Shown piece by piece: positions 10,016-16,768 of a stretch of DNA of 53,368 nt (the first letter of the stretch is position 1; every line of letters starts with the position of its first letter). This DNA comes from a virus. The DNA is taken from IMG/VR virus record IMGVR_UViG_3300030388_000656, positions 1 to 53,368 of that record; one strand, 5' to 3'. Below the pieces are notes generated by a model. The model was not told where the DNA came from. It ran no database searches and saw nothing but the letters and a program-made list of their open reading frames with translations. Both the position numbers and the translations under genes were made by a program.

Positions 10016-10224
10016 TTCTTTTTAAATCTAAATTGTGACATATCATTATTGATTGTCATCGGCTTTCTGTATAACGGAATAAGAGAGGTAAACTTGTCGT
10101 TATCCTCTCTCCTTCCACTATTCTTAAAATAATCATCAAACTCAATTACATTACTCCTGTAGTTGTCTTCGAATTCTTTTAGTCTTTTGTACTCTTCTAT
10201 AAATTCTCTGGTATCTGGACTCAT
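10012..10224 (-). CDS. hypothetical 70-aa protein
   Basis: 70 aa, charged. The helical N-terminus REFIEEYKRLKEFEDNYRS is followed by a basic tail ending RFKKK. No family was recognised. It overlaps both neighbours by four bases (ATGA-type), so it is co-translated with the Api92-like and DUF3310 genes. Confidence 0.65.
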   Translation of the reverse strand: MSPDTREFIEEYKRLKEFEDNYRSNVIEFDDYFKNSGRREDNDKFTSLIPLYRKPMTINNDMSQFRFKKK

Positions 10225-10823
10225 TCGACAATGATGTGTCTTTTACTCTCTTCTCTGATGTATTTTTTAGCTTCAACTAATGAAGTACCTAAAAACTCCA
10301 TACCCCACCAGTCGCAGTAGTATCCTATTCCACCATCGTAGTTTGGATGCTCATCTAATAACTTAGATAGATGGTATGTTTTCTTCTTATAAGTGTATTC
10401 AATTTCTTCATCAAAGTTTGGTTCATCGTATTCATCGTGCATAATCTGTTCTCCATTTTCATACTCCATCTCTCCTCCCCAGCCATTTTCTTCTTCCCAA
10501 TGGTAAATGAAGTCTGGAAAGTCCTTACTAAATAATTCAATGATGTTCATTCCAATACAGCTCCATGCTGAAGAGAAATTAATAGATCCCTCGTTTATGT
10601 CTATTTCGATGTCGTAACATCCCCATTTTGTATTCCAGTTATGAAGTCTCCATTCATACCATTTATGGTCTGCATCTCCCTTGTTTATCTCTGGAAGATA
10701 GTGTCTACATAAAGCTACTGGTTCTTCAGAATTCAATGTACTTTCCCAGTACTTTAGAATGTCTCTTTGTTTAGTGGTCATATCGTTACCGATTTGGATT
10801 CCACTCATTACATGATTTGGCAT
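10221..10823 (-). CDS. Api92-like / DUF1281-type protein
   Basis: 200 aa. It begins MPNHVMSGIQIGND and contains LHNWNTKWGCYDIEID, SINFSSAWSCIGMNIIELFSKDFPDF, HWEEENGWGG and YYCDWWGMEFLG. This is the NW.tKW...f.taWs...p pattern of the YubB/Api92 ferredoxin-like family, found in phages and plasmids and of unknown molecular function. It is rich in Trp and acidic residues. It follows the first hammerhead ribozyme: cleavage there would give its mRNA a leader of about 25 nt. Confidence 0.75.
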   Translation of the reverse strand: MPNHVMSGIQIGNDMTTKQRDILKYWESTLNSEEPVALCRHYLPEINKGDADHKWYEWRLHNWNTKWGCYDIEIDINEGSINFSSAWSCIGMNIIELFSKDFPDFIYHWEEENGWGGEMEYENGEQIMHDEYDEPNFDEEIEYTYKKKTYHLSKLLDEHPNYDGGIGYYCDWWGMEFLGTSLVEAKKYIREESKRHIIVE

Positions 10824-10842: not shown

Positions 10843-10895
10843 TATACTGACTACCTTTCGGTAGTTTCGGATACTGAATCCATCATCAGAGTATA
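10843..10895 (-). ncRNA. hammerhead ribozyme, type I, copy 1
   Basis: The minus-strand RNA has all core elements. Stem I: UAUACU (10895-10890) pairs with AGUAUA (10848-10843). Core CUGAUGA (10889-10883). An extra U, then stem II GGAU/AUCC with loop UCAGU. Core GAAA. Stem III ACUACC/GGUAGU closed by a GAAA tetraloop. Cleavage triplet GUC, with the cut expected after C at 10849. Stem I is the open stem (type I). The second copy at 13037 keeps the core while stems I and III differ by compensating changes, strong evidence for a real RNA fold. One extra nucleotide at this core position is known in a viroid hammerhead. It begins two bases after the upstream stop codon. Confidence 0.88.
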
Positions 10896-10896
10896 T

Positions 10897-11175
10897 TTAC
10901 AAGTGTCCTCCATACCCATTGGGAAGTTGGAATCTCCACTCGCTGTCGCTTTCTGGTTCGTTCATTCCTTCGTGGTCATGAACCCCACTACCAAACACAA
11001 TCTCAGTTTGGTTAATTAAATTATCTAAGACATCTACCCAGCTGTCTTCTATACTCATTAGGTAATCTGAAACATCTTCTTCTTTGATGTTCTCTGGTAG
11101 CTCTACCTCAATCTCGGTGTATTTATGATACACACTTCTCTGTTGTATTGTTACTGAATTTTTAGCCATTTCCAT
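10897..11175 (-). CDS. hypothetical 92-aa acidic protein
   Basis: 92 aa (90 if the next in-frame ATG at 11169 is used). Features are YTEIEVELPENIKEEDVSDYL, a short helix DVLDNLINQ, and the Gly-rich C-terminus LPNGYGGHL. Acidic. No family was recognised. It overlaps the upstream gene by 25 bases and stops two bases before hammerhead copy 1, so its mRNA 3' end would be made by ribozyme cleavage. Confidence 0.65.
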   Translation of the reverse strand: MEMAKNSVTIQQRSVYHKYTEIEVELPENIKEEDVSDYLMSIEDSWVDVLDNLINQTEIVFGSGVHDHEGMNEPESDSEWRFQLPNGYGGHL

Positions 11176-11878: not shown

Positions 11879-11888
11879 ATCTATTTAT

Positions 11889-12020
11889 TTATTTGTACCA
11901 ACCATAGGTCGGTAGTTTCTTGCATTGTCTTGTACTACTGCAAGAGATTAATGATAACAGCACAACCAAACAATATGTGTATGCCATGAGTTTTAAAAAT
12001 ACCTTTGTTGAGTTTTTCAT
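11889..12020 (-). CDS. tiny lipoprotein (43 aa)
   Basis: Read directly from the gap between neighbours. ATG at 12020, stop TAA at 11889, 43 aa. Basic start (MKNSTKVFLK), hydrophobic core AYTYCLVVLLSLI and lipobox LISC-SS at about residues 24-29, then a short mature peptide STRQCKKLPTYGWYK. Signal peptidase II processing would leave a mature lipopeptide of about 17 residues. It lies two bases after the stop of the 100-aa gene. With the second lipoprotein at 12435-12659 it resembles known phage superinfection-exclusion lipoproteins in kind only. Confidence 0.7.
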   Translation of the reverse strand: MKNSTKVFLKLMAYTYCLVVLLSLISCSSTRQCKKLPTYGWYK

Positions 12021-12393: not shown

Positions 12394-12396
12394 CAT

Positions 12397-12435
12397 GGGT
12401 ACGTTATCGTATCCTTCTGGGTACGTTATCGTATC
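12397..12435. repeat. two direct repeats of 17 bp, each with a short palindrome
   Basis: GGGTACGTTATCGTATC occurs at 12397-12413 and again at 12419-12435, a 22-base period. Each unit contains the inverted repeat TACG-TTAT-CGTA. The second unit touches the stop codon of the lipoprotein gene. It could be paired operator sites or small RNA hairpins just upstream of the two-hairpin motif. Confidence 0.7.
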
Positions 12436-12660: not shown

Positions 12661-13008
12661 TTAGTTGTTTGTATTAGTTATTATTGCTTGCTCTTCTTCT
12701 GTATACTCTTGGATGTCTACCAGTTTACCATCTATCTCTTCGTACTGGATATCTTCATCCTCTACCCAGTCTGTCCAGTAATAAATCTCATCGTTGTAAG
12801 CCCATTCCATTAATTCTTCATCAGTCATCTTGCTTGGGTACAGCTGGTTTCCATCTTCATCCTCTGCTGTAAAATCTTGACCTCTCAAGGTGTCAATTAA
12901 GTCCTTGTCATTTGCAATATACTCGTGGTCGTTGTACAGGTAACCTTCGTTCATACCCTCTCCAGTTATACCACATTGTCTTGCCCAAAAAATTCTTTCT
13001 TTACTCAT
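12661..13008 (-). CDS. hypothetical 115-aa very acidic protein
   Basis: I chose the ATG at 13008 (MSKERIFWARQCG), because the longer frame to 13080 runs through hammerhead ribozyme copy 2. The protein is strongly acidic with many Glu, Asp and Trp: MTDEELMEWAYNDEIYYWTDWV, EDEDIQYEEIDG. No family was recognised; the composition suggests a DNA-mimic or a binder of a host protein. Ribozyme cleavage at 13042/13043 would give its mRNA a 34-nt leader. Confidence 0.7.
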   Translation of the reverse strand: MSKERIFWARQCGITGEGMNEGYLYNDHEYIANDKDLIDTLRGQDFTAEDEDGNQLYPSKMTDEELMEWAYNDEIYYWTDWVEDEDIQYEEIDGKLVDIQEYTEEEQAIITNTNN

Positions 13009-13036
13009 CTTATTTGAATTAGTTTGTATCATTATT

Positions 13037-13089
13037 GATAGTGACTGCCAGCTGGCAGTTTCGGATATTAAATCCATCATCAGACTATC
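13037..13089 (-). ncRNA. hammerhead ribozyme, type I, copy 2
   Basis: Minus-strand RNA: stem I GAUAGU (13089-13084) with ACUAUC (13042-13037); CUGAUGA (13083-13077); one extra U; stem II GGAU/AUCC with loop UUAAU; GAAA; stem III ACUGCC/GGCAGU with loop AGCU; GUC with the cut expected between 13043 and 13042. The total is 53 nt, the same as copy 1. Compared with copy 1, four of six stem I pairs and one stem III pair are changed with pairing kept, while all core bases are identical. The 5' strand of stem I includes the stop codon of the upstream gene (13085-13087). Confidence 0.9.
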
Positions 13090-13372
13090 TGCTTCCCTCC
13101 ATGCAGTCTTTAAACATTATCCAGTCAGATACTTTCATGTCTTCAAATATCACATGTCCAAGCACGCTTACTAACTCCTCTTTCATTGTAGTTTGTGCCA
13201 TGATTAATCTAAGTTTTGGATAGTAGATACCTCCCATTTCATATGAGATTTTCTCTTCATCTTCTGGAGTTAATGTGTCTTTGATTCTGATACAATTCAT
13301 CTCTCTCTGAATTAACTCATTTCTGAAATCGTGCTTTAACATCTGTACTTGGTTTAAAATCTTTGCGTTCAT
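13085..13372 (-). CDS. hypothetical 95-aa protein
   Basis: 95 aa, helical. Begins MNAKILNQVQMLKHDFRNEL and contains LTPEDEEKISYEMGG and VSVLGHVIFEDMKVSDW. No family was recognised. It is framed by two structured RNAs: the two-hairpin motif ends 17 nt before its start, and hammerhead copy 2 overlaps its stop codon. Ribosomes terminating here would cover stem I of the ribozyme. Confidence 0.65.
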   Translation of the reverse strand: MNAKILNQVQMLKHDFRNELIQREMNCIRIKDTLTPEDEEKISYEMGGIYYPKLRLIMAQTTMKEELVSVLGHVIFEDMKVSDWIMFKDCMEGSR

Positions 13373-13435: not shown

Positions 13436-13455
13436 CTTTCTCTGGAGAGGGGTTT

Positions 13456-15121: not shown

Positions 15122-16768
15122 ATGGAACAAGGATACATTCCTAAAGACCTCAGCTTTGATGATGAGGCAAGGAACAAATTGATAAGTGGGATTACTAAAA
15201 TCTCCAAAGCAGTTAAGAGTACGTTAGGGCCAAGAGGTCAAACTGTTTTAATAGAATCAACAGAACATTTACAGGGGTTAACTATTACAAAGGATGGAGT
15301 TACTGTCGCTAAGTCAGTACACCTTGATGATCCTATTGAGAACCTTGCAGTTCGTATGATGAAGCAAGCTTCTGAGAAGACTGCTAATGTTGCTGGAGAT
15401 GGAACTACTACAGCTATTGTATTGACTGAAGCTATTGTCCAGGCAGGAATGAAATGGATCAAGCCTTATCATAATGTAACTGACATTGTTAGATACATAA
15501 GAGAGGACTCTGATGTTATTATAGAGAACATTAGGAATAGATCATTAGAGGTTACTGATGATATGTTAAAAGACATTGCAGCTATATCAGCTAACAATGA
15601 TTATGAGTTAGGAGATATTATCTCTGAAGCATATCAACAAGTTGGTAAGGATGGGATAGTAACAGTTGAGAGATCTCAAACTGACAAGACATATTCAGAG
15701 GTTACTAATGGAATAAGAATAGATAGAGGTTATACTTCTCCTATGTTTATTAATGATCAAAGAAAAGATGAATGTATTATGGAAGGTGTTAAGGTTTTAA
15801 TCTGCGACACTGAGATTCATAACATACTTCAAATAGAGAATATACTTAAACCAATTATTAATGCAGGAGATAAACTTTTAATTATCGGAACTTGTGCTGG
15901 CAATGTTATAAATACATTAGCAGCAAATGTTCAACGTAATGGATTAAAGTTTTGTAACATCATGCCTCCTTCATTTGGATACAAGACTCATGAGTTAATG
16001 CAGGATATTGCATTTGCTACTGGAGCTAAATACTTTTCAGAAAAGACTGGAGATGATTTATCTATTATAACTATGGCAGACTTGGGTTATGCTGATAAGA
16101 TTATAGTAGGCAAGTCATCTACTGTTATTATAAAGCAAGGAGATATTAGTGATGAGACATCTTCAAGAGTAGCAGAGCTACGAGATCAACAAGAAAGACT
16201 TACAGCAAAACATGAGAAGGACTTTATCAATGAAAGGATTGCTTCTTTAGTTGGAGGGATAGGTTGTATATATGTTGGGGCTACATCTGATATAGAACAA
16301 AAAGAAAAATTTGACAGAGTCGATGACTCTGTCTGTGCAGTACGTTCAGCTCTACAAGAAGGAGTTGTTCCTGGTGGAGGATTATTGTTATATGATTTCT
16401 CAAGACACTTCGGTTGTAACTGTGAAGATGCAGTATCTGAAAAGATAGATGAAGACCAGGCAGCAGAAATGATTATGAGAGAAGCTTTGAAAGCTCCACT
16501 AAAACAAATCCTTGCTAATGCTGGGCTTGATGAAAAGGAAGTTATGTCAGAGATATATACTGATGCTATGTTAGGAACATTAGATGATGCTCCTGAAGTA
16601 CCAGAAAATAACAGAGGCTATGATGTGGTAGGTAAACAATACGGAGATATGTTTGAGATGGGTATTGTTGATCCAGCCAAAGTAACGAAAGAAGCTTTGC
16701 TTAATGCAATTAGTGTTGCAACAACTATACTAACTACTAACGCAATCATAACACATAAACGAGCATGA
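15122..16768 (+). CDS. groEL: phage-encoded chaperonin GroEL
   Basis: 548 aa, full family length. Near the N-terminus are SKAVKSTLGPRGQTVLI and TITKDGVTVAKSV. The nucleotide-binding motif GDGTTTA sits at 92-98 (the phosphate-binding Asp is 93), and a second equatorial segment at about 400-425 has RVDDSVCAVRSALQEGVV then PGGG. The C-terminus lacks the GGM-repeat tail of host GroEL. It forms a folding cage for proteins, here probably the major capsid or other virion proteins. groES follows with an ATGA overlap. Sequence away from the ATP site looks divergent, suggesting long residence in phages rather than a recent host capture. Confidence 0.95.
   Translation: MEQGYIPKDLSFDDEARNKLISGITKISKAVKSTLGPRGQTVLIESTEHLQGLTITKDGVTVAKSVHLDDPIENLAVRMMKQASEKTANVAGDGTTTAIVLTEAIVQAGMKWIKPYHNVTDIVRYIREDSDVIIENIRNRSLEVTDDMLKDIAAISANNDYELGDIISEAYQQVGKDGIVTVERSQTDKTYSEVTNGIRIDRGYTSPMFINDQRKDECIMEGVKVLICDTEIHNILQIENILKPIINAGDKLLIIGTCAGNVINTLAANVQRNGLKFCNIMPPSFGYKTHELMQDIAFATGAKYFSEKTGDDLSIITMADLGYADKIIVGKSSTVIIKQGDISDETSSRVAELRDQQERLTAKHEKDFINERIASLVGGIGCIYVGATSDIEQKEKFDRVDDSVCAVRSALQEGVVPGGGLLLYDFSRHFGCNCEDAVSEKIDEDQAAEMIMREALKAPLKQILANAGLDEKEVMSEIYTDAMLGTLDDAPEVPENNRGYDVVGKQYGDMFEMGIVDPAKVTKEALLNAISVATTILTTNAIITHKRA

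Follow-up and report, generated by a model that had tools for sequence, protein, structure and literature searches.

Hammerhead ribozymes that lie between phage genes, where they possibly split long transcripts, were published in 2011 (PMC3088659). In the portions of that work (Perreault et al. 2011) and of a review (PMC6155905) considered here, the bacterial and prophage arrays are also intergenic, often contain several ribozymes and flank single small phage genes; the genes flanked in the arrays of Perreault et al. include anti-restriction genes, processing of polycistronic RNA was proposed for them, and cleavage was demonstrated for several, whereas it is predicted for the family described below. 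The same portions emphasise prophages, along with type II forms and those stabilised by a pseudoknot, and make no mention of an open stem I of strictly 6 bp, of a UNANU loop or of a placement at stop codons. The intergenic phage hammerhead is a known kind, and the present family is a compact subfamily of it. In its type I topology, its catalytic core and a loop II that appears to touch the stem I side, this subfamily resembles the hammerhead of Schistosoma mansoni satellite DNA, and it shares one core feature with the CChMVd plus-strand hammerhead, whose extra A10, between A9 and G10.1, occupies the position at which the phage ribozymes carry an extra base.

The window analysed here, a stretch of 53,368 nucleotides of viral DNA (IMG/VR record IMGVR_UViG_3300030388_000656, positions 1 to 53,368), holds two such ribozymes, both on the minus strand. 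Copy 2 (13037–13089) is a type I hammerhead with a 6-bp open stem I and an extra U10, and both the coordinates and the cleavage site proposed for it in the first-pass annotation proved correct to the base. Read along the minus strand, the 5' strand of stem I (GATAGT, 13089–13084) is followed by the core CTGATGA (13083–13077), an extra T (13076) between A9 and G10.1, stem II (GGAT, 13075–13072, and ATCC, 13066–13063) around the loop TTAAT (13071–13067), GAA (13062–13060), stem III (ACTGCC, 13059–13054, and GGCAGT, 13049–13044) around the loop AGCT, C17 and the 3' strand of stem I (ACTATC, 13042–13037). As C17 is 13043, the cut is predicted, from the hammerhead consensus position, between 13043 and 13042. 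The first-pass annotation had made no mention of the additional U that separates A9 from stem II.

Copy 1 (10843–10895) has the same core, starting at 10889, the same extra T and the same stem II arms, here around the loop TCAGT, followed by GAA; its stem I consists of TATACT (10895–10890) and AGTATA (10848–10843), its stem III of ACTACC and GGTAGT around the loop GAAA, and C17 is 10849, with cleavage predicted between 10849 and 10848. Comparison of the two copies bore out the earlier claim of a shared core and stem II arms with compensated changes in the outer stems, two pairs being changed in stem I and one in stem III. Each copy thus presents the CUGANGA ... GAAA ... UH core amid three helices, with one additional U after A9, and the hammerhead fold is the exact minimum free energy structure of the 60-nt piece of either copy. 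A loose hammerhead scan (CTGANGA, 0–1 extra base, stem II of at least 3 bp, GAAA, stem I of at least 5 and stem III of at least 4) gave two matches in the window and none in 20 dinucleotide shuffles. A covariance model scored the two copies at 71.6 and 71.0 bits (E ~1e-17), values that are partly by construction, since both were among its 33 training rows; the next best score was 11.7 bits, and the model matched nothing in the window beyond copies 1 and 2. A third copy suggested by a repeat finder at 11888–11919 was without the core and lay inside a short lipoprotein-like ORF, and it was dismissed as a chance similarity. When 30–40 nt of native upstream RNA were included, in a model without tertiary contacts, the predicted probability of stem I fell from 0.82 to 0.015 and from 0.76 to 0.007 in the two copies, and the native context may therefore make folding inefficient or dependent on assistance; with 60 nt upstream of copy 1, the predicted value was back at 0.74.

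The hammerhead identity receives very strong support from covariation across unrelated phages. A core-only pattern, CTGATGATGGAT-N5-ATCCGAAA, which left stems I and III unconstrained, matched 27 IMG/VR stretches, and stems I and III paired at 29 of 29 sites, with widely different sequences; a search for homologous phages with broken stems accordingly found none. The full set comprised at least 326 distinct instances in 242 loci, and shuffling the related loci gave none in 4.3 Mb of sequence. Among 33 ungapped sequences, all 16 pairs were 100% paired, which is partly by construction because these rows had been pre-filtered for pairing, and double-sided changes occurred in 14 of the 16 (six in stem I, three in stem II and five in stem III), giving a covariation score of 0.878, compared with 0.169 after shuffling and no more than 0.122 in slid controls. 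The unfiltered 29 of 29 and the shuffles are cleaner tests than the pairing of the 33 rows. The core identities CUGANGA, GAAA, A15.1-U16.1 and C or A at position 17 were kept; A15.1-U16.1 was A-U in 84 of 84 and position 17 was C in 76 and A in 8, figures to be read knowing that the search script itself demanded H17 and the A of A15.1-U16.1. For the members tested, Rfam listed no hammerhead family at either gathering or relaxed thresholds (E up to 10).

Contigs carry from one to seven copies, often spaced 0.3–1 kb apart, in which they resemble the tested phage arrays as described in the portions of PMC3088659 considered here, and single-copy phages are common. Near-identical copies within one genome (L011, L017) and heterogeneous flanking genes would suit a reading in which mobile early-gene cassettes carry the motif as a passive repeat or as a recombination boundary, with catalysis incidental. 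This reading is highly improbable, as stem sequences vary freely with pairing kept while the core letters are fixed, and recombination alone would keep sequence, not pairing. Other contigs also hold hammerheads of type III, in which stem III is the open one, that share the extra U10 and lie shortly 5' of phage genes (L034, L057, L064, L070, L075, L076, L089 and L101).

The anatomy of the subfamily is uniform around stem I, which has 6 bp in 313 of 326 instances, is usually closed by G-C and is flanked by A on either side (A/A in 309 of 326). Stem I is open and loops close stems II and III, which is type I topology, although no outer helix beyond stem I is paired across the family and the internal loop plus outer helix of classical type I forms is not found. 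Loop II has the consensus UNANU, and covariation links its fifth base to the nucleotide that directly follows the 3' strand of stem I (U/A 248, G/A 31, A/U 5 and G/C 2; n = 291), with the A/U and G/C combinations falling in unrelated loci (for example L007, L133, L140 and L178, and L041 and L058, respectively). We infer from this covariation that the two bases would form a tertiary pair, substituting for the classical stem I loop contact. Unlike that of the Schistosoma mansoni ribozyme, the phage stem I extends no further than the site of contact and has no outer helix, and the contact partner would be the single-stranded 3' flank.

The extra residue between A9 and G10.1 typifies members of the window type, and members without it are also common. 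Where present, it was U in 102 of 109, a count inflated because most searches demanded U there; the pattern with A, C or G at this position, which is the fairer comparison, was found in only eight stretches. In contrast to CChMVd, which is a viroid RNA, the phage members are messages, and the additional base in them is nearly always U. For the CChMVd hammerhead, a review states that U at this position makes trans-cleavage 3–4 fold faster than the native A (PMC3705267).

The ribozymes are placed between co-directional genes. Upstream of copy 2 lies an ORF of 95 aa without a PHROG match (13085–13372, minus strand), whose TAG stop codon (13087–13085) is part of the 5' strand of stem I, as the first-pass annotation had pointed out; downstream is an ORF of 115 aa (12661–13008, minus strand) with its ATG at 13008, and cleavage would leave its mRNA with a 34-nt 5'-OH leader (13009–13042). 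A longer reading of the downstream ORF, of 139 aa, starts inside the ribozyme core and was judged unlikely. In copy 1, the upstream ORF (10897–11175, minus strand) ends with TAA at 10899–10897, one nucleotide 5' of stem I, and the downstream ORF (10221–10823, minus strand; 200 aa, phrog_12644/20518, function unknown) has its ATG 25 nt past the cut. Counted from the first core base, the stop begins at -4 in copy 2 and at -10 in copy 1.

This arrangement generalises, with relatives in more than 100 other phage contigs starting nearly on the preceding gene's stop codon. With a simple gene caller, the upstream stop began between -16 and +12 of the first core base in 237 of 291 cases (81%), and where an unambiguous open frame reached the site (n = 274, a set that omits ribozymes whose upstream gene stops far off) 91% of the stops did so and 59% overlapped the ribozyme. 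In the narrower window from -16 to +4, 73% were observed versus 3% for a random same-strand position. Register peaks lay at -9, at -8 (TAG from the AG flank), at -3 (TAA in stem I), at +1 (UGA of CUGAUGA) and at +11/12 (the UNA in loop II), so that in many cases the stop is provided by letters of the motif itself. The first ORF ATG after the cut was found at a median distance of 25 nt (IQR 22–31), and the median gap between same-strand neighbour genes without a ribozyme was 4 nt. Tight packing is normal in these genomes, yet the ribozymes abut stops more strictly than genes do, and the overlap with a stop codon is a family rule, not peculiar to copy 2. No single gene family is tied to the ribozyme, the downstream proteins being heterogeneous and mostly unknown, with an anti-restriction protein occasionally among them.

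That a terminating ribosome would sit on the ribozyme, as proposed in the first-pass annotation, must follow from this geometry. It makes possible, but does not prove, a switch gated by termination, in which a ribosome at the stop would shield stem I together with the core, delaying cleavage until upstream translation ends or thins out. Several observations are consistent with such gating: in 81–91% of the family a ribosome on the stop could reach stem I or the core, 59% of the clear cases have a stop that overlaps the ribozyme, translation would in 24 cases run through stem I and the core to stop in loop II, and upstream coding RNA can mask stem I in both window copies. However, the register is not conserved, differing even between the copies of one phage, and no stalling-peptide signature was seen before the stop, most residue biases at the last codons coinciding with stretches in which the ribozyme doubles as coding sequence. 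The upstream hairpin against stem I was rejected as a family trait, as masking was not enriched across 320 instances (z = 0.07 +/- 0.06). Stop overlap is also explained by packing in compact genomes, where genes also abut, so packing against the stop suffices. We consider the gated switch unlikely, and give the same low credence to the idea that stop codons in the 5' half of the ribozyme (AG flank, stem I, core UGA and loop II UNA) halt ribosomes, with the completion rate of the upstream gene timing the cutting.

We favour constitutive processing over gating; no computed signature demands the latter. The window copies are most likely self-cleaving type I hammerheads that cut the minus-strand early transcript between cistrons, probably constitutively. 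The drop in predicted stem I probability with native upstream RNA and the lack of an outer helix speak against this reading. With the upstream gene terminating at or within the 5' half of stem I, ribosomes would halt ahead of the cut site; loop II would dock onto the 3' flank of stem I as the RNA folds, and the cut would fall after C17. The upstream message would then keep a structured 3' end, with stems II and III and a 2',3'-cyclic phosphate, and the downstream message would start with a 5'-OH leader about 25–35 nt ahead of its AUG. What the data show is the sequence, the covarying fold, the stereotyped order of stop, ribozyme, leader and ATG, and an occurrence in many phages, isolates among them; catalysis, cutting in the cell and an effect on message stability are inferred. 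Such hammerhead ends (5'-OH and 2',3'-cyclic phosphate) are among the substrates of RtcB, and tandem same-strand copies flank single genes, which would allow two successive hammerheads to release single-gene RNAs that an RtcB-type ligase of host or phage circularises. Many phages have one copy, however, and Perreault et al. sought circular or spliced products of the phage arrays and found none, according to the portion of PMC3088659 considered here; circularisation seems very doubtful.

The window phage, an aquatic one, encodes GroEL, a primase-helicase, a Sak-like annealing protein and an exonuclease VIII-like protein. The primase shares 63% identity with that of a spring-water podovirus and, across a third of its length, 43% with those of Flavobacterium phages, similarities that make a Bacteroidota host likely. 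The GroEL-like chaperonin (15122–16768; phrog_5725, E 1e-132) has a counterpart in the related phage MW202828.1, where groEL is accompanied by a chaperonin 10-kd gene; this nearest annotated relative of the window gave no ribozyme match. Isolates also carry the ribozyme: Methylophilales phage MEP301, with the stop UAA in loop II, Pelagibacter phage HTVC019P (38 bits) and the Flavobacterium elemo phages, with a more degenerate member (30.7 bits, imperfect stem II). In HTVC019P, the hammerhead lies in an unannotated gap (NC_020483.1, 2831–3396), and an open frame apparently enters it and ends at the core UGA; the annotation may miss a gene. Searches of Pelagibacter HTVC010P, Polaribacter Leef_1 and Maribacter Panino gave no ribozyme match. 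No hammerhead was found with the U10 core pattern in 85,462 GTDB genomes, the one match not folding as a hammerhead, which suggests mostly non-integrated phages.

Other elements were also observed. A different RNA element lies just 5' of gene starts at 13436–13387 and 12394–12345 of the window (minus strand) and at about 9535–9460 of L246 (minus strand), and consists of an 8–9 bp hairpin with compensatory changes, the invariant GGAUUUCGUGGUA and a second short hairpin. It is absent from Rfam, was found in only three distinct copies, and may be a further RNA with a role in processing or regulation. An exact 18-nt repeat, TGGGTACGTTATCGTATC, occurs twice (12396–12435, plus coordinates; 22 nt start to start) directly 5', on the minus strand, of the element at 12394–12345. 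In addition, two short ORFs of the early region (about 11985–11885 and 12659–12435, minus strand) have the lipoprotein-like signal ends LISCSS and LLQSCSS.

As far as the open-access literature shows, the compact open-stem-I architecture, the covariation between flank and loop II, the stop-codon rule and the invisibility to Rfam have not been described, and subscription papers or supplementary datasets may list part of this family. The family reveals a gap in Rfam and supplies natural counterparts to the viroid core with its extra nucleotide. For the question of what phage hammerheads do, this family offers a uniform layout of stop, ribozyme, leader of about 25 nt and start that spans many aquatic phages. 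Because hosts are named for isolates among them (Pelagibacter HTCC1062 for HTVC019P, a Methylophilales strain for MEP301 and Flavobacterium for the elemo phages), the ideas of processing and of coupling to translation are directly testable. Our analysis suggests that, in these phages, long messages are split into single-gene pieces by RNA rather than by protein enzymes.
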